Part shown: positions 9,050 to 25,926 of the stretch, piece after piece
Position numbering within the stretch: position 1 is the first letter of the stretch
Layout: each line of letters opens with the position of its first letter
From: Virgibacillus phasianinus
GTDB lineage: Bacteria; Bacillota; Bacilli; Bacillales; Amphibacillaceae
Length of the DNA: 64,000 nucleotides
Assembly (NCBI RefSeq): GCF_002216775.1
Contig: NZ_CP022315.1
Location: 1,984,001 to 2,048,000 of the forward strand
Direction: 5' to 3'
The notes under the pieces: model-generated
Database searches by the model: none
Told to the model about the DNA's origin: nothing
Seen by the model: only the letters and a program-made list of their open reading frames with translations
Program-made: the position numbers and the translations under genes

Positions 9050-9133
9050 AATGTATAGACAACTAATTATTTGTATGATACATTTTAAAGCAAGAAATGA
9101 ATATACATGTATGGAAAACCTAAAGCGCTTTCA
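9050..9133. promoter_or_regulatory. Divergent control region with inverted repeat and cre-like site
   Basis: AATGTATAGACAA (9050-9062) and TTGTATGATACATT (9071-9084) form an imperfect inverted repeat. ATACATGTAT at 9103-9112 is a perfect palindrome. Both are candidate operators for the adjacent GntR regulator. TAAAGCGCTTTCA at 9121-9133 resembles a CcpA cre site, so glucose repression is likely. Confidence 0.5.
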
Positions 9134-9159
9134 CTTTCACAACAAGGAGTTTGTTTATC

Positions 9160-10485
9160 ATGTCATTAAAAGTAGTAATTATTGGTGGCGGATCCAGCTA
9201 CACACCGGAAATAATTGAAGGCATCATCCGTCGTCACGACACTTTTCCAGTATCAGAAATCGTGCTCGTTGACATTGAAGCCGGAAAAGAAAAGCTGGAA
9301 ATCATCGGGAACTTAGCATTAAGGATGGTTGAAAAGGCAAAGAAATCTATTAATCTATCATGGACATTGGATCGCAAAGAGGCATTGCAACATGCGGACT
9401 TTGTTTCTACACAAATTCGTGTTGGCGGTTTGGCTGCCAGAGAAAAGGATGAACGGATTCCGCTCAGCCATGGTTTTATCGGACAGGAAACGAACGGTGC
9501 CGGTGGAATCTTCAAGGCATTTCGCACCATCCCAGTATTGCTGGAGCTTGCGAATGATGTTCATGAAATTTGTCCTGACGCCTGGATTATCAATTTCACA
9601 AACCCAGCGGGAATCGTTACGGAAGCTTTACTTAAGCACTCACCACACCAAAAGGTTATTGGGGTTTGTAACATTCCCTTTAACATGCGGCATTCCACAG
9701 CGGAAATCTTAAATGTCCGCCCAGAGGATGTGAAGATTGAATTCATTGGGATGAACCATTTCGTCTTCGGAAAAAAGGTATATGTAAACGGTGAGGATCA
9801 GACACAAGAAGTACTCACCAAACTAGCGAATGAAGGACTCGATTATTCACCGGCTAATATTGTTAATCTTGGCTGGTCCAAAACGTTTATTGAAGCAACT
9901 GGCTTGTTGTCCAATCCATACCATCAATATTATTTCCAGACAAAAGATGTTTTGGATAAAGACGTAAAGGCTTTTGAAGAAAATGGCACCCGTGCAGAAG
10001 TCGTTCAACAATTGGAAACGTCATTATTTGACTTATATAAAAACCCAGAATTAAACGAAAAGCCAAAGGAGCTTGAGAGCAGGGGAGGGGCATTTTATAG
10101 TGATGTAGCGTGTAGTTTGATGAATTCGCTTTATAATGATAGTGAAGATATTCAAACTGTTAACACAATGAATAACGGGGCCATCCCGGATTTACCGGAT
10201 CATGCCGTTATTGAAGTGAACAGTGTCATTACGAAACATGGGCCAAGACCAATTTCATCTGGGCCACTTCCAGACACTGTAAAAGGAATTATTTATCAAA
10301 TGAAAGCCTTTGAAGAACTCGTTATCCGCGCCAGCATAACTGGAAATTACCATGATGCATATACAGCCATGGTTATGAATCCATTAATTGCTGATGAAAG
10401 GGGAAGTAAGGTTCTGCTTGATGAGCTGTTGGAAGCGCACAACAATTACTTGCCGCAATTTAATACCGGTGGGAAGGCGGAATGA
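9160..10485 (+). CDS. GH4 6-phospho-beta-glucosidase (ChbF/LicH-like)
   Basis: This 441-residue member of glycoside hydrolase family 4 hydrolyses 6-phospho-beta-glycosides by an NAD+- and Mn2+-dependent oxidation/elimination mechanism. The N-terminal Rossmann motif is VIIGGGSSYTPE. NFTNPAG, VCNIPFNM and GMNHFVFG are family landmarks around the metal and substrate site. The ATG at 9160 follows AAGGAG at 9144-9149; an upstream TTG in frame lacks a site. It heads the PTS operon. With chbG beside it, the closest functional model is ChbF acting on phosphorylated chitobiose, though cellobiose-6-phosphate is equally possible from the enzyme alone. Confidence 0.87.
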   Translation: MSLKVVIIGGGSSYTPEIIEGIIRRHDTFPVSEIVLVDIEAGKEKLEIIGNLALRMVEKAKKSINLSWTLDRKEALQHADFVSTQIRVGGLAAREKDERIPLSHGFIGQETNGAGGIFKAFRTIPVLLELANDVHEICPDAWIINFTNPAGIVTEALLKHSPHQKVIGVCNIPFNMRHSTAEILNVRPEDVKIEFIGMNHFVFGKKVYVNGEDQTQEVLTKLANEGLDYSPANIVNLGWSKTFIEATGLLSNPYHQYYFQTKDVLDKDVKAFEENGTRAEVVQQLETSLFDLYKNPELNEKPKELESRGGAFYSDVACSLMNSLYNDSEDIQTVNTMNNGAIPDLPDHAVIEVNSVITKHGPRPISSGPLPDTVKGIIYQMKAFEELVIRASITGNYHDAYTAMVMNPLIADERGSKVLLDELLEAHNNYLPQFNTGGKAE

Positions 10486-10561
10486 GGAATGTCTGGTTAA
10501 TGTAGCGGGGGAAAGGGAACAACGGTTTACATTTTTAATACTATTAGGGAGAGTGTTCGTG

Positions 10562-10864
10562 ATGAAAAAAATTATGTTAGTTTGCTCAGCAGGTATGTCA
10601 ACAAGCTTATTGGTGACAAAAATGGAGAAAGCCGCAGCACAAAAGGGAGAAGAGGTTGAAATTTTTGCAGTGGCGGAAGCAGAGGCAAGTAAGCATTTTG
10701 AAGAGATTGATATTCTTTTGCTTGGGCCACAGGTGCGTTTTCTAAAGTCGAAATTGGAAAAGCAGCTTGAAGGGAAAAATGTCCCGGTTCGAGTTATTGA
10801 AAGTATTGATTATGGAATGATGAATGGCGAAAAAGTGTTAGAAACAGCGCTGCAAGCACTTTAA
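10562..10864 (+). CDS. chbB: PTS lactose/cellobiose-family IIB component
   Basis: This 100-residue cytoplasmic phosphocarrier of the lactose/chitobiose PTS family has the phosphorylated Cys at position 8 (VCSAGMSTSLLV). It accepts phosphate from IIA and passes it to the sugar entering through IIC. The ATG at 10562 follows AGGGAGAG; the longer in-frame extension upstream reads through the end of the GH4 gene in another frame and is not real. The order GH4-IIB-IIC-IIA-GH1 is a single operon. Confidence 0.9.
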   Translation: MKKIMLVCSAGMSTSLLVTKMEKAAAQKGEEVEIFAVAEAEASKHFEEIDILLLGPQVRFLKSKLEKQLEGKNVPVRVIESIDYGMMNGEKVLETALQAL

Positions 10865-14080: not shown

Positions 14081-14224
14081 GGGACGCGGGGTTCCTTGTC
14101 CCAGCGTTCCCAGTTCATTGCCATAAGTAAAGCTAGCATTCTCGGAGTTAACCGGGAATGCTAGCTATTTTGTTGTGATAGGGTATGGGTTCCTAGTGGG
14201 ACGCGGGACCTGTCCCTATGACCC
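14081..14224. repeat. REP doublet enclosing a terminator (forward arm shortened)
   Basis: The forward arm at 14081-14102 has lost part of its inner half (GGGACGCGGGGTTCCTTGTCCC). The reverse arm is intact at 14198-14224, and its TAG supplies the stop codon of the amidohydrolase on the minus strand. Confidence 0.75.
14131..14172. terminator. Strong terminator between convergent GH1 and amidohydrolase genes
   Basis: GCTAGCATTCTCGG pairs with CCGGGAATGCTAGC over a 6-base loop with flanking A and T tracts. It is again set between two REP arms. Confidence 0.8.
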
Positions 14225-15874
14225 TCTTCTCTCGTAAACCAACTTACTATTAATATAAGTGGCGATAACTTCAATATCTTTAATATCCATTGGATCAATG
14301 GTCGTAGGGTCTGAATCCAGCACGGCAAAGTCTGCTAGTTTGCCAACTTCTATACTGCCAACATTCGCTTCATCACTGTTTAACTTTGCTCCATCAATGG
14401 TCATCGTCTTCAATGCTTTCTCAACACTAATACATTGATCTTCCCCAAGCACTTCACCCTCCATCGTTCTACGATTTACCGCCGCCCAAATGGAAAACAA
14501 AGGGGATATCGGTGTGATTGGACAATCCGAGTGCAACGTATACAGTATATCCCGTTTTAACGCGTCTGCTAGCGGATTAATTTTGCTTGCTCGTTCTGGT
14601 CCTAAGAAAATATTTTTATGCCTATCACCCCAGTAGTAGACATGGTTGATGAAAAATGAACCGGCAACATCTAAAGAGCGCATTCGATCCAAATCCTCCA
14701 AAGTGGCCGTTTGTACATGCTCAATCCGATGAAGATGATCTTCACGTGGTTCATTTGCTAACGCATTCTCATAAGCATCTAAAATAGAACCAATCGCCCG
14801 GTCACCATTACCATGAACGGCAATACGAAATCCTCGCTTGTGTAAATCTAGTACCTCCGCATTAAAATCATCCTGATCCCGTGATAATTCTCCATAATAG
14901 GAGGAGTCGCAATGATAAGGTTCCCTTAACGCTGCTGTCATCCCTTGAATGGACCCATCCTGGAATAGCTTCGCACTGTCTAACACAGCACGCCCGTTGG
15001 ACCGTTTTTTAATTTCTTCATCAAGCTGTTCCGCTGTGTAGTTATGATATGGGCCTGTTTCACCTAAAAGATGATGGAGCACCAATAACCGCATGCGAAG
15101 CGGATTGTTTCCTTTTTCAAGTGCCATCAAGTGTGCATCGAATTCAGCTATCCCAAGATCAAGTCCGACACCAGCATCTGAATTTGTGGTAATTCCCTGC
15201 GCCAGGTAATCTTCGGCTGCTTCACCAATCAGGTTGGCCATTTCTTCAATAGATGGTGTGGGAATCGCAGCTTGCACTGGGGCTAATGCCGATAATTCAT
15301 GTAAAACACCGTTCAACTTGCCATCCTCATCACGTCCAAAGTGGCCACCCTGTGGATCCTGAATATCTTCACCAATATCGGCCACTTCCAATGCTTTTGA
15401 ATTTGCTGCTCCAAAATGTACGGAAATATGCCGTAAAAGTACTGGATTGTTTGGTGCAACTGCATCGAGCTCTTTGCGGGTAGGGTGTCTTTTTTCCTCT
15501 AAAAGTGTATTGTCATAGCCCCAGCCCATGACCCACTCTCCATCAGGGGTTTGATCAGCGAGTTCTTTCACTCTTGCTAAAATATCTGCAATATTGCGAT
15601 TTGGTGGCGTGCTGCAATTGGCCTGTGTTCGAAATTGGGAGTACATCAAAAGGTGGTTATGCGTATCAATGAAACCTGGTATTAGGGTAGCACCTTTAAG
15701 ATCAATTACCTCCGTTGCTGCAGTGATATTATTTTCATCTCGACGCGGTGGCTCTGGTGAGGACCAAACGTTACGAATCCGCCCATTTGATACGGCTACA
15801 GACCCTGCACGTGAATTTTGACCATCAAGTGTTAAAACAGTTGCATTTGTGATAAGTAAATCAATTGTATCCAT
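14216..15874 (-). CDS. YtcJ-like metal-dependent amidohydrolase (Amidohydro_3 family)
   Basis: This 552-residue member of the Amidohydrolase_3 family is similar in layout to YtcJ. The N-terminal beta-sandwich leads to the metal motif GFIDTHNHLLMYS. Further landmarks are MGWGYDNTLL, LFQDGSIQGMTAAL, AVHGNGDRAI, HRIEHVQTAT and TLHSDCPITPISP. The family hydrolyses exocyclic amides or esters of varied substrates and the specificity here is unknown. It lies 37 bases after a sodium:solute symporter on the same strand, which probably imports its substrate. The stop codon and last two residues (GS) lie inside the REP reverse arm at 14198-14224. Confidence 0.8.
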   Translation of the reverse strand: MDTIDLLITNATVLTLDGQNSRAGSVAVSNGRIRNVWSSPEPPRRDENNITAATEVIDLKGATLIPGFIDTHNHLLMYSQFRTQANCSTPPNRNIADILARVKELADQTPDGEWVMGWGYDNTLLEEKRHPTRKELDAVAPNNPVLLRHISVHFGAANSKALEVADIGEDIQDPQGGHFGRDEDGKLNGVLHELSALAPVQAAIPTPSIEEMANLIGEAAEDYLAQGITTNSDAGVGLDLGIAEFDAHLMALEKGNNPLRMRLLVLHHLLGETGPYHNYTAEQLDEEIKKRSNGRAVLDSAKLFQDGSIQGMTAALREPYHCDSSYYGELSRDQDDFNAEVLDLHKRGFRIAVHGNGDRAIGSILDAYENALANEPREDHLHRIEHVQTATLEDLDRMRSLDVAGSFFINHVYYWGDRHKNIFLGPERASKINPLADALKRDILYTLHSDCPITPISPLFSIWAAVNRRTMEGEVLGEDQCISVEKALKTMTIDGAKLNSDEANVGSIEVGKLADFAVLDSDPTTIDPMDIKDIEVIATYINSKLVYERRGS

Positions 15875-15911
15875 CTAAAGTAGCTCCTTTTATGACATGA
15901 AATTATCATGT

Positions 15912-17333
15912 TTATTTCTTTGCTGAATCCAAGTCATTCCAATAAACAGCCCTAACCTGTTCTGTTTTATCATGCTGCGTTACGAGGCTAATTACGACTA
16001 AACTGATAATGGAAACTGCAAACCCAAAGATTGTATGATTAATTGCGATGTTCAACAAAGGCCATGCTAATGTTGCAATTAATGCTAGAATCATGCTCCA
16101 CAGCATCCCAGCCTTGGTAACCTTCTTCCAGAACATTACTGCAAGAAACGGGAAAACCAATACGGTTGCTGATAATCGTAATGCCCACTGATAGGCGCTT
16201 GCGATGTCAGTCACAAAGTAAGCAGCAATTAGACCCAGTAGGGTGATAATTACAACCGTTAATCGTGAGGTAAACATGAGTTGCTTGTTATTTGCATTTG
16301 GTCTCATCAAGCGTTGATATAAGTCCCTGGTAAGGTTAGAACTTCCTTGAAGGATAAAGGAAGTAGCCCCAGTCATAAGCGCTGCCATCAGACCAATGAA
16401 GACAATACCACCAACAGCTGGAGGCAAGAGTTCAGCGGTCACATAAGAAAACAACAAGTCAGGATCTAAATCTAATGGTACATATTGGCGGGCGATAACC
16501 CCAATCGAAAAGGGTAAAACAGAAATTGCCCCAGCAATGACGAAACCAGTTACACCGGCTCTTTTCGCAACCCTTTCATTTTTTGAAGCAAAGATACGCT
16601 GCCATGTTGACTGCCAAACTAGATAAAACGGACCTACGGATAATGCATACAGCAGTATTTCACCTAATCCCTTAGGGCCTAAAGGACTAATCAATTCAAT
16701 AGGTGTATTAGCAACAATGTTTCCGAAGCCACCAGCATAGAAAATACTGGCCACAAATAAAACAATAATCCCGACAATTACAATGATTGATTGCAATGCG
16801 TCGGTTACAATTGTCGCTGGCAATCCTCCTAAAACGGTAAAGCCTAAAATTAAGGCAAAAGATAACGCAATTGCTATATTTGTCTCAATACCTAGCGTGA
16901 TATTAAAAATGGTAGACATTCCTACCATCTGCAATGCAAGTGTTGGTACAGAATAAACAAATGCGGAAAGAATAGATGGAATAATCCCAGACTTACCACC
17001 AAATCTTTCGCCAAATAAGTCTGCTAACGTATAAAGTTTCTGCCTTCTTAACGGGCCTGCAAATGCAACAATTAATAGAAGACAAAACAGAATGCCCGGA
17101 AGCGCAAATTTAAAAAATCCGGAAAGTCCTACCGTGAATCCCATGCCGACCCAGCCAATAAAGACTGCGGCACCGCACCATGTACTGACTATCGTGCCAA
17201 CGATTGGCCAGAAGCCAGTGTTCCAGCCGCCAATTAAGTATTCATCGTACGTTTTTATCTTGAAAAAATAATAGAAACCCATCGCAAACATTAAAATGAA
17301 ATAAATAATTATGTAGCTTAAATACCATGCCAT
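15912..17333 (-). CDS. Sodium:solute symporter (SSS family)
   Basis: This 473-residue membrane protein of the SSS family has about 13 hydrophobic helices. The N-terminal TYDEYLIGGWNTGFWP and the VLGGLPATIVTDALQ segment are family features, with SSNLTRDLYQRLMRP after the core. It couples Na+ entry to uptake of an unknown organic solute. It is the first gene of a two-gene minus-strand operon with the amidohydrolase, starting after a GAGAGG site. Confidence 0.82.
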   Translation of the reverse strand: MAWYLSYIIIYFILMFAMGFYYFFKIKTYDEYLIGGWNTGFWPIVGTIVSTWCGAAVFIGWVGMGFTVGLSGFFKFALPGILFCLLLIVAFAGPLRRQKLYTLADLFGERFGGKSGIIPSILSAFVYSVPTLALQMVGMSTIFNITLGIETNIAIALSFALILGFTVLGGLPATIVTDALQSIIVIVGIIVLFVASIFYAGGFGNIVANTPIELISPLGPKGLGEILLYALSVGPFYLVWQSTWQRIFASKNERVAKRAGVTGFVIAGAISVLPFSIGVIARQYVPLDLDPDLLFSYVTAELLPPAVGGIVFIGLMAALMTGATSFILQGSSNLTRDLYQRLMRPNANNKQLMFTSRLTVVIITLLGLIAAYFVTDIASAYQWALRLSATVLVFPFLAVMFWKKVTKAGMLWSMILALIATLAWPLLNIAINHTIFGFAVSIISLVVISLVTQHDKTEQVRAVYWNDLDSAKK

Positions 17334-17464: not shown

Positions 17465-17974
17465 TTGACAAATCAATTATTTCAGAAAGTTAGGGACGGA
17501 GGGACAGGTCCCTCGTCCCGCATAAGGGTTGTCGAAGGGACGTTAAAGCCTTCCAGCGAATATCAGATGCATGCACTTGTCTACCGAAACCGTTTTGAAG
17601 CACAGGCAATGATTCATACGCATGCACTTTACGCTACCACGATTTCCTGTCTGAAGGAAAAATTACCCGCAATTGACTACCTTTTGGCCTATTCAGGCGG
17701 ACCGAATGTTAAGTGTGCAAAATATGCAACATATGGGACACATGAACTTGCAGAAAATGCACTAGAAGCAATGAAAGGCAGAAAAGCTGTGCTGCTGGCG
17801 AACCATGGTATCAACGTTTTTGGAGGCAACCTCTGCGAAGCATTCGACATTAGCGAGCAACCTGAATTTTGTGCAAGACTATATTGGCAAACCAAATCCG
17901 TTGGAAATCCGGTTATACTCCCAGAGGAGGCGATGAATCGGATGGTCGAGCGGTTTGAGGGGTATGGGCAGTAG
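17465..17974 (+). pseudogene. Class II aldolase/adducin-family remnant, N-terminus lost at a REP insertion
   Basis: From about residue 20 the frame matches the class II aldolase family (fuculose-phosphate aldolase or ribulose-phosphate epimerase type). VVEGTLKPSSEYQMH, the zinc ligands IHTHALYAT and LANHGINVFGG, and FGGNLCEAFDISEQ are all kept. About 60 N-terminal residues, including the phosphate-binding part, are missing. In their place is a REP forward arm (17493-17519), read in frame as DGGTGPSSR. The only start is a TTG with no ribosome site. The gene is therefore broken and the REP sits exactly at the break. Confidence 0.8.
17493..17519 (+). repeat. Single REP forward arm at the breakpoint of the aldolase remnant
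   Basis: This is a complete forward arm (outer GGGAC, inner GGGACAGGTCCC, outer GTCCC) with no reverse partner nearby. Confidence 0.85.
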
Positions 17975-18224: not shown

Positions 18225-18258
18225 TTGACTAATTATTTAAAAGGTTATAATATTATAA
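18225..18258 (+). promoter_or_regulatory. gntR promoter with overlapping TTATAATATTATAA operator
   Basis: TTGACT (18225-18230) and TATAAT (18246-18251) give a sigma-A promoter with a short 15-base spacer. The perfect palindrome TTATAATATTATAA at 18245-18258 covers the -10 box. The same palindrome recurs before the next two genes, so it is the best candidate operator for the GntR protein, with autorepression. Confidence 0.6.
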
Positions 18259-18283: not shown

Positions 18284-19006
18284 ATGGAAATTAATAAGAG
18301 TTTATCGATACCTTTATATCAACAAGTAAGGGGATATTTAAAAGAGAAAATTATTTCGGGTGAGTGGGAAGTTGGCTACCAGTTGCCAACAGAAAAGGAA
18401 TTGGCGTCACAATTTGATGTGAGTAGCATCACAATAAAACGAGCAGTACTTGAACTGGTTAATGAGGGGCTGCTGCATCGCCAAAGCGGGAAAGGGACCT
18501 TTGTAACACAAATTGAAGAAAAGGATATATCAAAATTTGTGTCATTAAAAAATGAGTCTTGGGAACAGCATCATCACCCGCATAAATTACTGAGCTTTAA
18601 AAAAGATCCAGCTGGAAGAAAGGTTGGTAAGTTGCTGGAAATAAAACCTGATGAAGATGTATATAAAATTAATCGTTTGAAAATCCAAAACGATAGTCCA
18701 GTGGTAATCGAGCATTCGTTTATCCCGTCTGCTTTATTTCCCGATTTACAACAATCCGATATAGATAACGATTTACTGTATAACATTTTTATCAAAAAAT
18801 ATGGAGCACAATTAAAAAAGGCAAGAATTTATTTTTCAACAATCCTTGCTGATGAATACGAAGCAAATTTATTAGAGGTTCCAATTGGAGAACAATTATT
18901 TGTATTTGAACGCTATACCGTTACGAAAGATAATAAAGCAGTTGAGTATTCCAAATTTGTTCTCAAACAGGATCAATCGAAATACTTTCTGGAGGTTCAA
19001 CTTTAA
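18284..19006 (+). CDS. GntR-family regulator with UTRA domain of the amine-oxidation operon
   Basis: This 240-residue regulator has an N-terminal GntR winged helix (LPTEKELASQFDVSSITIKR, QSGKGTFVTQ) and a UTRA effector domain from about residue 85 to the end. It directly precedes, in the same direction, a seven-gene operon for flavoproteins, iron-sulfur proteins and a symporter. Copies of the palindrome TTATAATATTATAA lie at its own promoter and before the first two operon genes. The likely ligand is the imported substrate or its first product. The ATG follows AAAGGGAG. Confidence 0.88.
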   Translation: MEINKSLSIPLYQQVRGYLKEKIISGEWEVGYQLPTEKELASQFDVSSITIKRAVLELVNEGLLHRQSGKGTFVTQIEEKDISKFVSLKNESWEQHHHPHKLLSFKKDPAGRKVGKLLEIKPDEDVYKINRLKIQNDSPVVIEHSFIPSALFPDLQQSDIDNDLLYNIFIKKYGAQLKKARIYFSTILADEYEANLLEVPIGEQLFVFERYTVTKDNKAVEYSKFVLKQDQSKYFLEVQL

Positions 19007-19043
19007 ACTTTAAAATTGTTTTAAACTAAATATGTAAAAAAAG

Positions 19044-19073
19044 TTATAACTTTATAAGATTATAATATTATAA
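19044..19073 (+). promoter_or_regulatory. Tandem operators before the first oxidoreductase gene
   Basis: TTATAACTTTATAA (19044-19057) and TTATAATATTATAA (19060-19073) lie 16 bases apart, upstream of the gene at 19149. They are the same motif as at the gntR promoter. Confidence 0.6.
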
Positions 19074-19148
19074 ATAACTAAGCTGCATTATAATTCGAAA
19101 AAAGTTTGATGAGAGTAATTAAACTACTATTTAATAGGGGTGAGAAAA

Positions 19149-20270
19149 ATGAAGGTTATTATCATCGGCAGTGGCATAGTTGGTGCCAGTGCTGCATATC
19201 ATCTAGTTAAAAATAATACAGAAGTAATGATGATTGATAAGAATCATCAGGGGGCCGCAACCTCTGCTGGAGCAGGGATCGTTTGTCCGTGGATTTCAAG
19301 TGTGGAAGACGCCGATTGGTATAAAATTGCAAAACAAGGTGCGAACTATTATCCTGAGTTAATTTCACAATTAAAAGAAGATAACGAAGAAAATGTTGGT
19401 TATAAAAAAGTAGGGGCACTGCGCATAGGAACAGATTCTGATGAATTAGACAGAATTGAAAATGAGGTAAGAACAAAGCAGAAAGATGCACCAGAATTAG
19501 GTGATATCGAGAGATTAACCCCGACTGAAGCTCGTGAGCTATTTCCGCCTTTACATGAGGGAATGGAAGCTGTTTTTGTTTCTGGTGCAGCTCGTGTAGA
19601 CGGCAGATTAATAACAGATGCAATGAAACGTGCCGCTCAAAAACATGGCGCAAAACTAGTGAATGGTGAAGCGGAATTGATCCATGAACGAGGCAGAATA
19701 ACGGGTGCCCGCGTCAACGGTGAAAAGTTTTATGCAGACGCGGTTCTACTGACAGCTGGCGCCTGGTCACAAAAGTTATTGGCCCCGATTGGCATTGACT
19801 TAAAAGTGGAATCACAGCGTGGACAAATCGCGCATATAAAATTGTCAGCTACAGACACTTCTAATTGGCCTGTTGTATTGCCAAAAGGAAGTCACTATAT
19901 GTTAGCGTTTGATGATTCACGAATAGTTGCCGGTGCGACAAGAGAAACAGGGGCAGGATTCGATTACCGGACTACTGTTGGAGGTGTACATGAGGTAACC
20001 ACGGAGGCTTTATCCGTTGCGCCAGGTCTTGCTGAAGGAACATTGCAGGAAGTACGAGTTGGATTTCGTCCGCTTGGCCCAGATGTTTTACCTATATTAG
20101 GAGAACTGGATAATGTGAAGGACGTAGTAGTGGCAACCGGTTTAGGAGCTTCAGGGCTCACAATGGGACCGTACGTTGGGGCATTGGCTGCCTCGATTGT
20201 AACGGGAGAAGAGGTAGATCTTGATTTGACGGCGTATAATCCAATGCGCGCTATTAAGATTACGAATTAA
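19149..20270 (+). CDS. FAD-dependent D-amino-acid/glycine-oxidase-type oxidoreductase (DAO family)
   Basis: This 373-residue FAD enzyme of the DAO (DadA/glycine oxidase) family starts MKVIIIGSGIVGASAAYHLV, the dinucleotide-binding motif. LTAGAWSQKLL and GFRPLGPDVLPILGE are typical later landmarks, with a closing GLGASGLTMGPY segment. The family oxidises amino or imino acids. The ATG at 19149 is chosen over a GTG at 19140 because AGGGGTGAG lies at the right distance before it. It opens the operon after gntR. It is one of three DAO-type proteins here, so it may act on a downstream intermediate or on the opposite enantiomer. Confidence 0.82.
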   Translation: MKVIIIGSGIVGASAAYHLVKNNTEVMMIDKNHQGAATSAGAGIVCPWISSVEDADWYKIAKQGANYYPELISQLKEDNEENVGYKKVGALRIGTDSDELDRIENEVRTKQKDAPELGDIERLTPTEARELFPPLHEGMEAVFVSGAARVDGRLITDAMKRAAQKHGAKLVNGEAELIHERGRITGARVNGEKFYADAVLLTAGAWSQKLLAPIGIDLKVESQRGQIAHIKLSATDTSNWPVVLPKGSHYMLAFDDSRIVAGATRETGAGFDYRTTVGGVHEVTTEALSVAPGLAEGTLQEVRVGFRPLGPDVLPILGELDNVKDVVVATGLGASGLTMGPYVGALAASIVTGEEVDLDLTAYNPMRAIKITN

Positions 20271-20277
20271 TTAGATT

Positions 20278-20299
20278 CTATAATATTATAACTTTATAA
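20278..20299 (+). promoter_or_regulatory. Overlapping operators before the [2Fe-2S] subunit gene
   Basis: CTATAATATTATAA (20278-20291) and TTATAACTTTATAA (20286-20299) overlap by six bases, so the same two motif versions recur at an internal operon position. This suggests a second regulated promoter. Confidence 0.55.
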
Positions 20300-20316
20300 T
20301 GTTTGGAGGTTTTAGA

Positions 20317-20640
20317 ATGGACCCTTTCATCCATCCTATTTTTGGAAAAAGTATAAAAAAAGAAGTACCTTTTTATTTTAATGGTGAATTGCTTAAAGCT
20401 AGGGAAGGGCAAACGGTAGCCGCCGCATTAATGGCAAATGGTATTAAGAAATTAGGGGTTAGTAGAAAGCTGCAACAGTCTAGGGGGTTGTTTTGTGCAA
20501 ACGGCAGATGTTGCAGCTGTTTTGTTTCTGTAAATGAATTAGACCATGTGCTAAGCTGCATGACTCTCGTGGAAAAGGGCATGAAGGTTGATTCAAATAA
20601 TGGTGACCCTAATGTCAGGGGTGAAAAAAATGGAGACTGA
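20317..20640 (+). CDS. Small [2Fe-2S] subunit of a heteromeric amine dehydrogenase (HcnA/LhpF-like)
   Basis: This 107-residue protein has a Fer2_4 ferredoxin-like fold, as in the small subunit of HcnABC, opine oxidases and D-hydroxyproline dehydrogenase. The cluster ligands are the Cys of GLFCANGRCCSC and the later LSCMT. The ATG at 20317 follows GGAGG; an ATG at 20299 overlaps the operator and lacks a site. Its end overlaps the next gene by 11 bases. It probably carries electrons between the FAD subunits encoded downstream. Confidence 0.85.
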   Translation: MDPFIHPIFGKSIKKEVPFYFNGELLKAREGQTVAAALMANGIKKLGVSRKLQQSRGLFCANGRCCSCFVSVNELDHVLSCMTLVEKGMKVDSNNGDPNVRGEKNGD

Positions 20641-21745
20641 TTTATTAATAATTGGTGGTGGTCCTGCCGGGTTAAATGCTGCATATGAAGCAGCTTCACA
20701 TGGTATTGAAACACTAGTCATTGAGGAGTCATTTTCGATGGGTGGCCAATTAAGACAACAAACACAGGTTTTGGATAAACTACCAAAGCAATTTGAAAAA
20801 CAAAGAGGTACAACGCTTGCTCGAACATTGATCGAAAAACTTTCAACCTTAAATGTAAAAGTGTTATTAAAGCACACGATGATAGGTACTTACCAGGATG
20901 GGCGAATTGGCGTGTCAAATGGAGTAAAAACAATTCCAATTACTGCTAAGAGGATTATTGTTACAACGGGTGCAGCCGAAGAAGCAAGTGTGTTTCCGGG
21001 CTGGACATTGCCAGGAGTGATGACCATAGGAGCCGCCCAAATATTAATGAATCGTGAATATGTACAACCAGGGAAAAATGCGCTTGTTTTGGGTTCAAAT
21101 ACCTTTTCTTTAGAAATTGTTAAACAATTTAAGGAAATGGGTGTGACTGTACGAGGGATTATTGAAAGTAATAGTGAGCTTATTAGTAAACATGAAAAAA
21201 TCATTAAATCCATTAAAAAAGACGGTATCCCGCTCTATTTGAATAGCTACATTGAAAATGCGACGGGTGTTGGTGAGGTACAAAAAGTGACTCTAAATCA
21301 TAACGGTATCACAGAAGAGATGAATATTGATTTGGTTTGTATTGGTAAAGGGGTAGCACCGATTCTAGAACCTTTTGAAATAATGAATTGCAGTTTTACA
21401 TATCAAATTCGCCTTGGTGGGTGGGTACCCCAATACTCTATATCGATGGAAACAAGCAGCCCCTCCGCGTATATAGCGGGAAATGCCGCCGGAATCACAA
21501 GTATGGGTGGTATTCTACTAACGGGTCAGCTTGCAGCGGTCAGTGTGGCAGAATCCTTGGGTTTTTTAAATGAAAAACTGGCAACAGAGAAAAGAGCATC
21601 CTTGTGGAAGGAACTTCATTGTATTGAAACTACTGCGGATTTACGAGAGGTATTTAATGCCCGAATGGCTTTAATTAAAGACTATCATGAAGAAGCTAAC
21701 CTGCTACCTTCGTCGTTATTTGATTTGAGCTTGGAGGAATGTTAA
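20630..21745 (+). CDS. FAD/NAD(P)-type oxidoreductase subunit (HcnB/LhpE-like, without BFD domain)
   Basis: This 371-residue pyridine nucleotide-disulfide oxidoreductase-like flavoprotein has DLLIIGGGPAGLNAAYEA at the N-terminus and an internal NAD-type region (KNALVLGSNTFSLEIVKQF). AGNAAGITSMGGILLTGQLA is a typical FAD-closing segment. HcnB/LhpE homologues in proteobacteria are about 100 residues longer because they end in a BFD-like [2Fe-2S] domain. Here that domain is the next gene, in the same frame and separated only by one TAA. The start at 20630 follows AGGGGTG. Confidence 0.82.
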   Translation: METDLLIIGGGPAGLNAAYEAASHGIETLVIEESFSMGGQLRQQTQVLDKLPKQFEKQRGTTLARTLIEKLSTLNVKVLLKHTMIGTYQDGRIGVSNGVKTIPITAKRIIVTTGAAEEASVFPGWTLPGVMTIGAAQILMNREYVQPGKNALVLGSNTFSLEIVKQFKEMGVTVRGIIESNSELISKHEKIIKSIKKDGIPLYLNSYIENATGVGEVQKVTLNHNGITEEMNIDLVCIGKGVAPILEPFEIMNCSFTYQIRLGGWVPQYSISMETSSPSAYIAGNAAGITSMGGILLTGQLAAVSVAESLGFLNEKLATEKRASLWKELHCIETTADLREVFNARMALIKDYHEEANLLPSSLFDLSLEEC

Positions 21746-22078
21746 ATGGACAAATCAACAATCGTTTGTAGATGTGAAGAAATAAATATTGATGAAATTG
21801 AATCAGCCATTAAAATGGGTGCACATACTTTTGATGACATTAAACGAATAACGAGATGTGGCATGGGACCATGTCAGGCGAAGATATGTACAACTCTGGT
21901 ACAACGAATAATCAGTGAATATACAGACAAACCGTTAAGTGACATTGGACCATCTAGAATGCGAATGCCGCTAAAGTTAACGCGAATTGGTGTTTTAGCA
22001 GGAAATAAGGAATCTTCCAGTGTCATTTCCGTTTTTAGTGAGTCAGCATCAAAAGAAGGTGAAACAAAAAATGACTAA
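21746..22078 (+). CDS. BFD-like [2Fe-2S] protein, split partner of the HcnB-like subunit
   Basis: This 110-residue protein has a BFD-type [2Fe-2S] domain. Cys8 and Cys10 (VCRCEEI) and the later pair in RCGMGPCQ are the cluster ligands. Residues ~75-110 form a tail without clear family. It begins immediately after the TAA of the preceding gene and in the same reading frame, with its own GGAGG site at 21733-21737. A natural split of an HcnB-type fusion is more likely than a recent nonsense mutation. It overlaps the next gene by eight bases. Confidence 0.8.
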   Translation: MDKSTIVCRCEEINIDEIESAIKMGAHTFDDIKRITRCGMGPCQAKICTTLVQRIISEYTDKPLSDIGPSRMRMPLKLTRIGVLAGNKESSSVISVFSESASKEGETKND

Positions 22079-23156
22079 TCAATACGACGTTGTTGTTATC
22101 GGCAGTGGTGTAATAGGGAGCAGTATTGCCTACCATCTATCGGAAAGCAAGCAGAAAGAGATTTTAGTAATTGATAAAGGATTCCCTTTATCTGGCACCT
22201 CAGGATCCACTCAGGCCTGGGTATGGGTCCACAATAAAACGCCGTCGTGGTATGGCGAACTAAGCATGTATAGTGCGGAATTATATCCTTTTTTAGAAAG
22301 GAAAATTGGCGATGTAGAATACAAGCGCACCGGTGGTATTGCTCCGTTTTTTAATGAATCGGACCGGGAGAAAGCACTAAGACTAGCTGAAAAACAGGCG
22401 GAAGTTGGCATCGATATTGAAGTATTAAACCGTGAACAGGTATTGGAGAAAGAACCAGCGTTATCTCCAACTATTGCTGGAGCGACATATAGCAAAATTG
22501 ATGGAAATGTAAATCCGTTCCGCCTGGTCGAGCTCTATATTAAAGCCGCTAAAAGGAATGGTGCGGAGTTCTCTTTTTATAATCCAGTTATTGATATTGA
22601 TAAAGATAATGGGAATTTTACGATCACAACAAAAGAAGGAGTTTTTTATGCAAAACAATTGATTTTGGCTGGTGGTCCCTGGACGAAAGGATTGGGTGAA
22701 CTTTTAGGAATAGATATTCCAGTCAAACAGGTGCGGGGACAAATAATAGTTACAGAGCCATTGGCACCATTAATCAAACATACGATAGGGGGGATGCGAC
22801 AAGCTGACAATGGAGAAATCCTGATCGGATATTCGAAAGAGGAGGTGGGATATGACCGAAGAACTACACTGGATGTGATTCAGGATACAGCAAAAATGGC
22901 TGTCGACTATTTACCAGACCTGGCAAGAGCAAATATCGTACGCTGTTTTTCAGGAATTCGGGTAATGCCGCATGATGGGTTTCCAATTTTAGGTGAAATT
23001 CCAGAGATTGATAATGCATTTATTGCGGTTATGCATAGTGGTATTACATTGTCACCTTTAGTTGGAACGCTGATGACGGAACTTTTAACAGAAGGGGAAA
23101 CATCTATTGATTTAAAACGTTTAAGATTTAATCGTTTTAATGAATGTAATGTTTAA
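22071..23156 (+). CDS. DAO-family FAD oxidoreductase, catalytic subunit (HcnC/LhpB-like)
   Basis: This 361-residue FAD protein begins with the DVVVIGSGVIGSSIAYHL motif and contains AGGPWTKGLGELLGIDIPV and the closing VMHSGITLSPLVG. It resembles the beta subunits of HcnABC, opine oxidases and D-hydroxyproline dehydrogenase, which oxidise an amino or imino acid and hand electrons to the partner subunits. Translational overlaps with the two preceding genes point to a stoichiometric complex. The substrate is not determined by sequence; a D-amino acid, proline derivative or N-methylated osmolyte is plausible. Confidence 0.82.
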   Translation: MTNQYDVVVIGSGVIGSSIAYHLSESKQKEILVIDKGFPLSGTSGSTQAWVWVHNKTPSWYGELSMYSAELYPFLERKIGDVEYKRTGGIAPFFNESDREKALRLAEKQAEVGIDIEVLNREQVLEKEPALSPTIAGATYSKIDGNVNPFRLVELYIKAAKRNGAEFSFYNPVIDIDKDNGNFTITTKEGVFYAKQLILAGGPWTKGLGELLGIDIPVKQVRGQIIVTEPLAPLIKHTIGGMRQADNGEILIGYSKEEVGYDRRTTLDVIQDTAKMAVDYLPDLARANIVRCFSGIRVMPHDGFPILGEIPEIDNAFIAVMHSGITLSPLVGTLMTELLTEGETSIDLKRLRFNRFNECNV

Positions 23157-23239
23157 GAAAAACTGACAGCATGACTTTTACTAAACTAATTATTTATAAG
23201 TAACATACGGTAATGTTAATAAATAATAGGAGGTAAAAA

Positions 23240-24667
23240 ATGAATGCTACTTTAGTAATTGTGTTAAGCTCTATTGTGGTTTTGTCGGCGGCAGCTGTTT
23301 TCTCCATTTGGATTGGCAGGAGGAATAAAAGTAGTGAAAATTGGTCAGTTGGCGGCAGATCATTACCCATTTATGTAGTAGCTGGAACCCAGTTTGCTAC
23401 AGGGATGGGTGGTGGTGTGCTAGTAGCACATATTGGGATAGGCTACAGTGCAGGCTGGTCAGCAGTAACGTATAATGTACTTTATTCCATCGGTATCGTC
23501 ATTCTGGTATTACTTGCTAATTGGCTAAAGGAGCATAAGTTTACCACAATGCCGGAGATTTTTAAAAAGTTGTACGGCGATCATAAAATAATGATGAGTA
23601 TCGTCACCTTTTTAGCCATTGTTGTTCCATTTGGATGGTTATGTACACAATTAGTTGCTTTTGGAAGTCTGTTTTCAGAGATTACAGGTATTGGTTTCGC
23701 CACGCTGTTGGTAATCTTCGCTGCTATTAGTCTATTATTTGTACTGCCTGGTGGACTTAGTTCTGTTGCGTGGACCGATTTCATTTTTGGCTGTGTAATG
23801 GTAGTCATGACAATTGTAAGTGGATTTTATGTATTAGAACTTGCCGGTGGCTGGTCCGAAATAACATCTAAAGTACCAGAGTCGATGGTTAGTTTCCCGG
23901 AAGGATTCGGAGCGGTTGGAACGATGACAATTATTTTTTGGATATTGGCGATTTTCCCTGGAGCATTGACGAATCAGATGTCCTACCAGCGTATTTATGC
24001 TTCAAGTAGCGCTCAGGTAGCTAAAAAGGGATTTATTATTGCTGCAATAGTAGGGGTTATCAGCGGCTTTTGGGCGTCATTTATGGGCATCGCTATTTTC
24101 TCTATGAATCCCGATTTAACCGATCCAGAATTAGCCTCAGGGTGGTTCCTAACCCAGATCCCACTTTGGTTTATGGCAATATACGCTTCATTTATTATTG
24201 CTACCATTATGTCGACCGTTAGTAGTGCTGTTCAATCAGTTGTAGTTAATTTAACAACGGATATTTACCAATCTTACATTAACCCAAACGTTAGTGATAA
24301 CAAATTATTGAAGTTATCACGGATTTTGTCCGTTATCGTAATAGCTTTGGCAGTGCTTCTAGCATTATATTATCCTAAGGCGTTAGGATGGTTAGTTGCA
24401 ACGTATGCCTATTCTGCATCGGGATTATTGGTACCAATTTTTGGCGGTTTCCTTCTTAGAAAGTCGAATCTATTGAGTGCTAAAGGTGCAATAGGAAGTA
24501 TGGTCTTAGGAATAGCCTGTGCAGCAATTGCACAAATAATTGGCACCGATATACCATATGTAGCATTCGGTATACTCGGATCATTGGTAGGCTTTATTTT
24601 GTTTAACTATATGTATAAAGATAAAAACAGTGTAGCTGATATAGAAAAAAGTGAGCTAGAGGCTTAA
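23240..24667 (+). CDS. Sodium:solute symporter (SSS family) of the amine operon
   Basis: This 475-residue SSS-family transporter has about 13 helices. It carries ENWSVGGRSLPIYVVAG near the start, LPGGLSSVAWTDFIFG in the middle and QMSYQRIYAS after helix 7. It presumably imports the compound oxidised by the neighbouring flavoproteins. It is 83 bases downstream of the HcnC-like gene, with a perfect AGGAGG site, and 40 bases before the SolA-like gene. Confidence 0.83.
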   Translation: MNATLVIVLSSIVVLSAAAVFSIWIGRRNKSSENWSVGGRSLPIYVVAGTQFATGMGGGVLVAHIGIGYSAGWSAVTYNVLYSIGIVILVLLANWLKEHKFTTMPEIFKKLYGDHKIMMSIVTFLAIVVPFGWLCTQLVAFGSLFSEITGIGFATLLVIFAAISLLFVLPGGLSSVAWTDFIFGCVMVVMTIVSGFYVLELAGGWSEITSKVPESMVSFPEGFGAVGTMTIIFWILAIFPGALTNQMSYQRIYASSSAQVAKKGFIIAAIVGVISGFWASFMGIAIFSMNPDLTDPELASGWFLTQIPLWFMAIYASFIIATIMSTVSSAVQSVVVNLTTDIYQSYINPNVSDNKLLKLSRILSVIVIALAVLLALYYPKALGWLVATYAYSASGLLVPIFGGFLLRKSNLLSAKGAIGSMVLGIACAAIAQIIGTDIPYVAFGILGSLVGFILFNYMYKDKNSVADIEKSELEA

Positions 24668-24707
24668 GATGAAGTATCTGAATAAATAAAAAATACGAGG
24701 TGAGAAA

Positions 24708-25838
24708 ATGGATGCTGATGTAGCGGTTATTGGAGTGGGAGCAATGGGAAGTATGGCTCTTTGGCAGCTTGCTAAAAGGGGCGTTTCCGTTTTGGGATTT
24801 GAGCAATTCGGGATTGGCAATGACCGATCAGCCGTTGGAGGAGAATCACGCTTATTTCGAACGGCGTACATGGAGGGGAAGGAATATGTGCCATTATTAC
24901 AAGAAGCCCGCCAGTTATGGAAGCAACTAGAGGAAGAATCACATAAAAGTTTATTAACACTTAATGGAGGATTAATGATTGGCGATCCCAACACGGAAGT
25001 TATACAAAATGTACTTCGTTCGATAGAAGAGTTTCATTTAGAACATGAGGTAATGCAGGGAAATGAAGCTAAACACCGATATCCTCAACATCGCCTATTT
25101 TCTGATGATATAATGGTTCTAGATAAAAATGCAGGTTTTCTACGACCTGAGTTAGCAACCGTTGCTGCCGCGAATCAGGCAGAGGCTCATGGGGCAAAAA
25201 TTCACAGGTATACTAAAGTAGAAGACATTCTCCCAGATAACGATGGTGTTACTATTCTAGCTAATGGGGAAAAGTATCGGGTTGGCAAAGTGTTGATTAC
25301 GACAGGTGCATGGACTGGAAAACTCGTTCCGGAATTAAACAAAAAAATAAAAGCCCGCCGTTTGGTGTTAACATGGTTTGCCCCAAAAAATATCGAGGAC
25401 TTTAAACCCGATAAATTTCCAATTTTTGCTCGGATGCGAAAGGATTTCCGGCTAACAGGTGCACCGACACTAGATGGAACAATGGTGAAAGCTTCCAATA
25501 CGAAGAATCCAGGAATTGTTCCAGAACCAGAAGAGCTTAACCGTGATGTTTCACTAAGAGAAATGATCGAAGTTGGCGAATCTGTTAAGGAATTAATACC
25601 CGGACTTATACCGAATCCTGTGCGAGCTAGTGTTTATATGGATGGGTACACCGATGATGATCATTCTATTGTTGGGGAAGTGCCAGGTATGGAAAATACA
25701 TTATTAGTAAGCGGTTTCTCAGGGCATGGATTTAAGATGGCACCTATTATCGGTTCAATAGCCGCAGATCTTATCATCGATGGGAAGACTTTACATGAAA
25801 TCGGGCATCTTGATTCGAGAAGATTTGTTAGGAATTGA
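24708..25838 (+). CDS. Monomeric sarcosine oxidase/N-methyltryptophan oxidase-like flavoprotein lacking the FAD-linking Cys
   Basis: This 376-residue protein has the MSOX/SolA layout: VAVIGVGAMGSMALWQLAKRG, the ESRLFRTAYMEG region, and a C-terminal SGFSGHGFKMAP segment. Known MSOX and MTOX enzymes bind FAD covalently through a Cys near residue 315 (CxYT motif). The matching position here is Ser308 in RASVYMDGYT, and the whole protein contains no cysteine. FAD must therefore be non-covalent. It ends the operon and probably oxidises a secondary amine from the same pathway, such as an N-methyl amino acid. A REP arm and terminator follow at once. Confidence 0.82.
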   Translation: MDADVAVIGVGAMGSMALWQLAKRGVSVLGFEQFGIGNDRSAVGGESRLFRTAYMEGKEYVPLLQEARQLWKQLEEESHKSLLTLNGGLMIGDPNTEVIQNVLRSIEEFHLEHEVMQGNEAKHRYPQHRLFSDDIMVLDKNAGFLRPELATVAAANQAEAHGAKIHRYTKVEDILPDNDGVTILANGEKYRVGKVLITTGAWTGKLVPELNKKIKARRLVLTWFAPKNIEDFKPDKFPIFARMRKDFRLTGAPTLDGTMVKASNTKNPGIVPEPEELNRDVSLREMIEVGESVKELIPGLIPNPVRASVYMDGYTDDDHSIVGEVPGMENTLLVSGFSGHGFKMAPIIGSIAADLIIDGKTLHEIGHLDSRRFVRN

Positions 25839-25867: not shown

Positions 25868-25897
25868 GGAGACTCTATCTATATTTATAAATAGAAA

Positions 25898-25926
25898 GGG
25901 TCGGGGAAGATATCCCGGCCCTTTTT
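25898..25926. terminator. Terminator between the amine operon and the rhodanese gene
   Basis: GGGTCGGG pairs with CCCGGCCC over an 8-base loop, followed by TTTTT. It stands between convergent genes. Confidence 0.8.

Follow-up and report, generated by a model that had tools for sequence, protein, structure and literature searches.

A conserved GntR-linked operon of Virgibacillus phasianinus predicted to encode a heteromeric DAO-type dehydrogenase

We describe an operon of Virgibacillus phasianinus that encodes a predicted heteromeric DAO-type dehydrogenase, a symporter, and two further DAO-family flavoproteins, together with the GntR-family regulator gene that precedes it. The window analysed is the whole stretch of 64,000 nucleotides at positions 1984001-2048000 of the single 4.07 Mb contig, and coordinates are given as window positions. 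The operon genes and the regulator gene are intact open reading frames (ORFs), all on the plus strand and co-directional, and span 18284-25838. Their Pfam order is GntR plus UTRA, DAO, Fer2_4, Pyr_redox_2, SO_alpha_A3/Fer2_BFD, DAO, SSF, and DAO. The regulator (18284-19006; PF00392 and PF07702) is a GntR-family protein with a UTRA effector domain. Downstream of it lie DAO1 (19149-20270; Pfam DAO), probably a stand-alone flavin adenine dinucleotide (FAD) amine oxidase; a Fer2_4 [2Fe-2S] protein (20317-20640; PF13510), the predicted gamma subunit; an HcnB-like protein (20630-21745), the predicted FAD part of the alpha subunit, assigned by Pfam and by matches to PDB 1y56_A, 2gag_A, and 1vrq_A; a BFD/SO_alpha_A3 protein (21746-22078; Pfam), the predicted [2Fe-2S] part of alpha, encoded by a separate gene; DAO2 (22071-23156; Pfam DAO), the predicted beta, or catalytic, subunit; an SSS-family sodium/solute symporter (23240-24667; Pfam SSF); and a flavoprotein resembling SolA and monomeric sarcosine oxidase (MSOX) (24708-25838; Pfam DAO). 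A preliminary description of this DNA had proposed seven co-directional genes with one regulator. The intact frames, the Pfam order, and the conserved gene order bear this out, the start proposed there for DAO1 (ATG 19149) is upheld, and the regulator gene, which had been left outside the interval, is part of the unit.

The genes of the core are closely coupled. The Fer2 and HcnB-like genes overlap by 11 bp, the HcnB-like and BFD genes abut, and the BFD and DAO2 genes overlap by 8 bp, while the gaps before the SSS and SolA-like genes are 83 and 40 bp. The Fer2 gene probably starts at 20317, a start picked by its Shine-Dalgarno sequence; its ORF could open at 20299. Between the operon and a convergent rhodanese gene is a rho-independent terminator-like hairpin (25893-25926; 13 pairs, -21.4 kcal/mol) with a T run behind it, which is not among the sites of the consensus terminator scan. 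That scan of the window gives two terminator-like sites, both intragenic, where shuffled sequence gives 5.4, and 27 promoter-like sites, where it gives 24.7. The consensus scan therefore weighs neither way.

The gene set is conserved in the family. In a set of 159 genomes including our own, the HcnB-like protein has a match at E<=1e-40 in 14, again including our own; the 13 other genomes hold 14 matches, one of them contributing two loci that are identical over the operon, and we compared the 14-18 kb around each. The Fer2, HcnB, BFD, DAO2, and SSS genes occur together in 14/14 of these loci, one Fer2 and one BFD missed by ORF calling being recovered by tblastn. SolA and GntR are each present in 12/14 and DAO1 in 3/14, and clustering of the fetched flanks gives no further gene family common to more than 2/14. 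DAO2 is 72-84% identical across 13 orthologues.

For a wider set, one genome per species was scanned with the DAO2 alignment, giving 80 stretches and 56 loci, nearly all from Bacillaceae or related families. Genes were counted by tblastn with identity thresholds set by us and 45% coverage; several loci end at contig ends, the members of two pairs (L022/L023 and L034/L035) do not differ across the operon, so that each pair is counted twice, and all loci are drawn by DAO2, so that operons without DAO2 fall outside the counts. The core is present in nearly every locus (Fer2 54, HcnB 54, BFD 56, and DAO2 55). The other genes are patchy: GntR 41, DAO1 20, SSS 15, SolA 14, PotD 26, DUF1904 19, a Dpp-type ABC transporter with an M20 peptidase 9, an FAH-family hydrolase 8, and malate synthase G 6. 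Operons like that of the window carry the SSS gene, mostly with SolA. The 26 PotD-bearing loci, which include many from Cytobacillus and Neobacillus, have a PotABCD-like ABC transporter, and the M20 peptidase and Dpp/NikA-type ABC genes stand directly before DAO1 in their nine loci, one of which (L036) also has SSS and SolA. On a quick tree of DAO2, with one transporter label per locus, the SSS label needs three changes and is confined to one 19-row group (SH-aLRT 81), which also contains two Dpp-type operons and one Pot-type operon. The gamma-alpha-BFD-DAO2 core is thus conserved across Bacillales, and the transporters and side oxidases are exchanged. On the same tree, the DAO2 proteins of Pseudomonas sp. 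ISL-84 (L068) and Paenibacillus sp. BSR1-1 (L056) are nested among Cytobacillus and Neobacillus rows; these two assemblies are possibly mislabelled or contaminated.

A 14-bp palindrome, TTATAATATTATAA, marks the upstream regions of the unit. It occurs as an exact copy upstream of gntR (18245-18258), as an exact copy upstream of DAO1 (19060-19073, overlapped by a one-mismatch copy at 19052-19065), and as a one-mismatch copy upstream of Fer2 and the core genes (20278-20291). The window thus holds four sites with at most one mismatch, compared with 0.06 expected. Genome-wide, the exact palindrome is found only at 18245 and 19060. At up to one mismatch there are nine genomic sites, four of them in the operon, compared with seven for the reversed control, and therefore one-mismatch sites alone prove little.

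The related loci are more informative, with the reservation that their palindrome counts are not independent of each other. The 56 loci contain 26 exact copies, and each of the 26 lies no more than 400 bp ahead of an operon gene; such upstream zones make up 17% of the bases and hold 75 of the 79 copies with at most one mismatch. An exact copy lies in an upstream zone in 25/56 loci, and a copy with at most one mismatch in 42/56. Sorted by downstream gene, the exact copies precede gntR (11), DUF1904 (9), Fer2 (4), M20 (1), and PotD (1); an exact copy is seen ahead of Fer2 in L019/L032, L020, L024/L043, L029/L042, and L074. When all 128 AT-only 14-bp palindromes are ranked, TTATAATATTATAA leads with its 26 in-zone copies, ahead of a runner-up with four and a mean of 0.11 for the other 127. 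The palindrome is therefore a probable operator of a GntR regulon, as judged from its distribution. Joint regulation of the unit is well supported, because the same palindrome precedes gntR, DAO1, and the core. The proposal of a unit under one regulator stands on this common palindrome and on the retention of SolA (12/14 family loci; 14/56 in the wider set), and the palindrome distribution speaks against separate promoters and unrelated induction.

The DUF1904 gene (e.g., L051 11132-11467) adjoins the core in its 19/56 loci. It has its own palindrome copy in 10 of the 19, nine exact and one with a mismatch.

The core has the make-up of a known complex type. Opine dehydrogenase, according to PMC4575208, consists of an alpha subunit with FAD and a BFD-type iron-sulphur motif, a DAO-type beta subunit with an R-x-W flavin mononucleotide (FMN) motif, and a gamma subunit with a Fer2-type motif. 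The alpha, beta, and gamma genes are in tandem in the window, as in the type that comprises opine dehydrogenase (OpnDH), D-hydroxyproline dehydrogenase (D-HypDH), L-proline dehydrogenase (L-ProDH), and hydrogen cyanide (HCN) synthase. The gamma motif is C-x4-C-x2-C-x12-C, as published, and is kept in 50/50 called ORFs. The BFD motif, C-x-C ... C-x4-C, is kept in 47/48 called ORFs at a tested spacing of 25-36, compared with the printed X15-20. The HcnB-like FAD part and the BFD part are fused into one protein in plasmid relatives from Oceanisphaera, Microvirga, and A. vitis, and are separate genes in a Paenibacillus cluster of the hydroxyproline type. Since they are fused in relatives, we take the HcnB-like and BFD proteins together as alpha.

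DAO2 has R-x-F at the FMN-motif column in 55/55 rows. Four other heteromeric beta subunits have R-x-W at this column, and the beta of the Paenibacillus hydroxyproline cluster has R-T-Y. DAO2 is 33-35% identical to the betas of the three fused-alpha relatives (Oceanisphaera, Microvirga, and A. vitis), and its closest solved relatives are glycine oxidases. By sequence comparison, DAO2 is the one DAO protein of the operon that resembles the beta, or catalytic, subunit of heteromeric dehydrogenases of the opine or D-hydroxyproline type.

DAO1 is 49% identical over 365 residues to PDB 6pxs, which is labelled only 'FAD dependent oxidoreductase' and which we take to be the iminodiacetate oxidase IdaA. 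The FMN-motif column of DAO1 and two of its kin reads E-x-R, and DAO1 is absent from 11/14 family loci and 36/56 wider loci. DAO1-like proteins (E<=1e-70) occur in 269/348 genomes of the order; among the matches listed, mostly one per genome, nine are 57-63% identical to the window DAO1 and the others 46-52%. Our genome also holds a paralogue of the second, widespread type, 47% identical, at genome positions 362107-363222 (L090 7102-8217). On a tree that took in four of the nine order-level rows chosen, the widespread paralogues form a clade (7 rows, 99/100) apart from the operon DAO1s, a clade of 6pxs with Salipiger and Paracoccus sequences (3 rows, 100/100) excludes DAO1, and the operon DAO1s form no single supported clade. 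IdaA oxidises iminodiacetate to glycine and glyoxylate, and such glyoxylate-releasing chemistry would fit malate synthase (see below), but DAO1 falls outside both the 6pxs clade and the Bacillales paralogue clade. Given the separate clades, the E-x-R column, and the patchy presence, DAO1 is most readily viewed as a stand-alone oxidase whose specificity is related but unproven. A B. subtilis relative of the paralogue shares its record with a sugar ABC gene, presumably of the frl region. On four plasmids of proteobacteria, related DAO genes have RidA genes as neighbours.

A role for DAO1 as a second beta subunit was considered and rejected. In the Bradyrhizobium opine dehydrogenase cluster there are two beta genes, in the order OdhB1-C-A-B2 (PMC4575208). 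DAO1 is without the FMN motif, and four plasmid relatives show no Fer2/HcnB-like neighbour in gene tables that are incomplete. The earlier idea that both DAO proteins belong to the heteromeric enzyme is therefore not sustained, given the missing motif, the likeness to 6pxs, and the frequent absence of the gene. What does hold of the proposed pairing of a heteromeric dehydrogenase of the hydroxyproline/opine type with a monomeric amine oxidase is that such a dehydrogenase adjoins an MSOX-like protein.

The SolA-like protein matches sarcosine oxidases over its full length and passes the NCBIfam threshold set for N-methyltryptophan oxidase (333.9 vs 257 bits). It keeps the MSOX-type R..R and GFSGHGFK carboxylate-side motifs and has a Lys aligned near the flavin-activating Lys of MSOX. 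The position of the Cys that carries covalent FAD in MSOX is Tyr in the window protein and in 14/14 orthologues. The protein should bind FAD non-covalently, because Tyr replaces Cys, and should use a secondary amine as its substrate class.

The neighbours of the core in some relatives point to a product. Malate synthase G is co-directional and within 10 kb of DAO2 in 6/56 loci, for which the chance is ~2e-7 in a binomial estimate that ignores relatedness and assumes one gene and 4.5 Mb per genome. It lies directly after DAO2 in L037, L050, and L058 and after DUF1904 in one locus, L051 malate synthase G exceeds its NCBIfam cut-off, and an FAH-family gene is near malate synthase G in 5/6 loci. 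Three of the six loci (L051, L052, and L060) have no DAO1 in the stretch examined, and therefore we link malate synthase to the core. Malate synthase is present in 14/14 family genomes with the operon and in 59/145 others (Fisher 9e-6, kinship uncorrected); in G072, which is among the 14, the sole malate synthase is a shorter protein of A-type length. About 57 kb downstream in our genome, at genome positions 2060-2078 kb, are genes for malate synthase G, glycolate-oxidase-like proteins, an FAH-family protein, and lactate-permease-family proteins, which presumably serve glycolate use. Because malate synthase G stands near the core in six related loci, glyoxylate is the most likely product, and such a product would imply glycine or an N-substituted glycine as the substrate.

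The best overall reading, to which we give somewhat less than even weight, is a GntR/UTRA regulon whose core dehydrogenase would form glyoxylate by oxidising glycine or a glycine with an N-substituent. In this scheme, the SSS symporter would import a compound of the N-substituted glycine type. The core would assemble as a membrane-type dye-linked dehydrogenase, with DAO2 as the beta subunit bearing FAD and the substrate site, alpha split into the HcnB-like FAD protein and the BFD [2Fe-2S] protein, the Fer2 protein as the [2Fe-2S] gamma subunit, and FMN at the alpha/beta interface. It would oxidise a C-N bond of the substrate and release glyoxylate, with the respiratory chain as the destination of the electrons. 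Either ahead of this reaction or following it, further N-substituents may be stripped by the SolA-like oxidase and, in certain species, by DAO1; glyoxylate would join metabolism via malate synthase.

Several observations weigh against this scheme. As to regulation, 14/56 loci, including the close relatives L044 and L050, have no palindrome in the counted zones. As to the enzyme, the R-x-F of DAO2 deviates from the published R-x-W, and the beta of the Paenibacillus hydroxyproline cluster is distantly related to DAO2 (~29%), so that sharing this fold does not imply a particular substrate; moreover, the AlphaFold model of DAO2 made with 14 sequences is poor (mean pLDDT 59). As to the product, neither the window operon nor 50/56 loci (some cut by contig ends) contain malate synthase G, tblastn finds it in 0/15 loci of the SSS type, and in L052 and L060 it lies before gntR, outside the core. 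Malate synthase has other roles as well, in the glyoxylate shunt and in glycolate use, and related genomes enter the 14/14 count uncorrected.

Among the alternatives, a sarcosine or N-methylated osmolyte route is fairly unlikely. Here sarcosine or another N-methyl amino acid would first be demethylated by the SolA-like protein, and the glycine so formed would then be oxidised to glyoxylate by the DAO2 complex. The data speak neither for nor against the osmolyte substrate that the preliminary description held plausible; the genes beside related operons indicate a compound from which glyoxylate is formed. The N-methyltryptophan-oxidase score and the MSOX-type motifs of the SolA-like protein are in accordance with this, as are the glycine oxidases that head the solved relatives of DAO2; HCN synthase, which belongs to this complex type, also uses glycine, one option for DAO2 as well. 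The Tyr at the covalent-FAD position throughout the orthologues argues the other way, and no dimethylglycine or betaine enzyme is found among the scanned neighbours, the Pfam and NCBIfam scans having covered part of the genes that flank related loci. In addition, SolA is absent from 26/26 PotD-bearing loci, and is thus dispensable for the core reaction there.

Catabolism of opines or other secondary amine dicarboxylates, with the core as an opine dehydrogenase, an enzyme that oxidises nopaline or octopine, and DAO1 and SolA acting on related N-carboxyalkyl amino acids, is unlikely. The likeness of DAO1 to 6pxs, which we take to be iminodiacetate oxidase, would suit it, as would the plasmid relatives of DAO2, which include Agrobacterium vitis clusters with ABC transporters. 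Iminodiacetate oxidase acts on a secondary amine dicarboxylate, as stated in PMC7312458, and the subunit architecture and the order of two DAO genes resemble Bradyrhizobium OdhB1-C-A-B2 (PMC4575208). However, DAO2 is no closer than 33-35% to the three fused-alpha betas, no arginine- or ornithine-type gene recurs among the Pfam-scanned neighbours, and malate synthase suggests glyoxylate rather than pyruvate or 2-oxoglutarate.

A D-hydroxyproline or D-proline dehydrogenase operon is highly improbable. In its favour, DAO2 has a 28.7% relative in a cluster on a Paenibacillus plasmid, where two genes of the proline racemase family accompany DHDPS-family and aldehyde dehydrogenase genes. However, epimerase, deaminase, and aldehyde dehydrogenase partners are not found in the operon or among the scanned window neighbours, and we reject hydroxyproline because our genome has a separate cluster of the hydroxyproline type ~0.1 Mb upstream. 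That cluster (genome positions 1896-1914 kb; L092) holds two proline racemase-family genes, DHDPS-family, aldehyde dehydrogenase, and DAO genes, and a second Fer2/HcnB-type pair, a set that we take to serve trans-4-hydroxyproline use.

One locus offers a different lead. Upstream of the operon in L031 are ABC-transporter genes and a gene for an argininosuccinate-lyase-family protein (9132-10673), which scores 244 bits to PDB 6rx8, 242 to 6g3d, and 197 to the next argininosuccinate lyase. We take 6rx8 and 6g3d to be EDDS lyase, and this single locus is thus a possible lead to an EDDS-type chelator.

Comparison with described systems places the operon within a known complex type. The closest are OdhABC and OoxAB/NoxAB, the opine dehydrogenases of Pseudomonas putida and Bradyrhizobium, which share the DAO beta, the HcnB-like alpha with a BFD-type motif, and the Fer2-type gamma in one operon, and in Bradyrhizobium two DAO genes flank the others, as here (PMC4575208). 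The present operon differs from them in that alpha is split into two genes, R-x-F replaces R-x-W, DAO1 does not resemble a second beta, and the SSS symporter and SolA are added. Heteromeric D-hydroxyproline dehydrogenase has the same three-subunit plan, with a split-alpha relative in the Paenibacillus hydroxyproline-type cluster, whereas our operon is without its epimerase, deaminase, and aldehyde dehydrogenase partners. The hydrogen cyanide synthase HcnABC is of the same complex type and is named as kin in PMC4575208, a likeness drawn from description and not from sequence; the operon differs from it in its extra genes, its Bacillales spread, and its malate synthase neighbours in 6/56 loci. 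Monomeric sarcosine oxidase/SolA is matched over its full length here, but the covalent-FAD Cys is Tyr in 15/15 sequences. Among the papers listed from the open-licence PMC literature, none has a title or abstract start that describes the operon.

Three further genes lie on the upstream side. A second SSS symporter gene and an Amidohydro_3 hydrolase gene (14216-17333, minus strand) are divergent from the operon, and the window motif scan finds no copy of TTATAATATTATAA ahead of this pair. Between the pair and gntR lies a class II aldolase ORF (17465-17974) whose match starts at Pfam profile position 57, probably a 5'-truncated remnant.

Taken together, the operon is a real, conserved, and probably co-regulated catabolic unit of the heteromeric DAO dehydrogenase kind. 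A further step is rather doubtful: that it represents an undescribed Bacillales regulon, with one GntR regulator and the operator TTATAATATTATAA, which would mineralise N-substituted glycines to glyoxylate via the heteromeric dehydrogenase and swap transporters and side oxidases between species according to the local substrate. The substrates may include natural aminopolycarboxylates, strombine-like opines, and N-carboxymethyl amino acids. If this is true, the vaguely annotated 'FAD-dependent oxidoreductases' of many Bacilli would gain a place in a defined regulon whose operator can be tested and whose product is predicted, and the operon would show how, in nature, transporters and side enzymes are swapped around a single oxidising core that is itself conserved.

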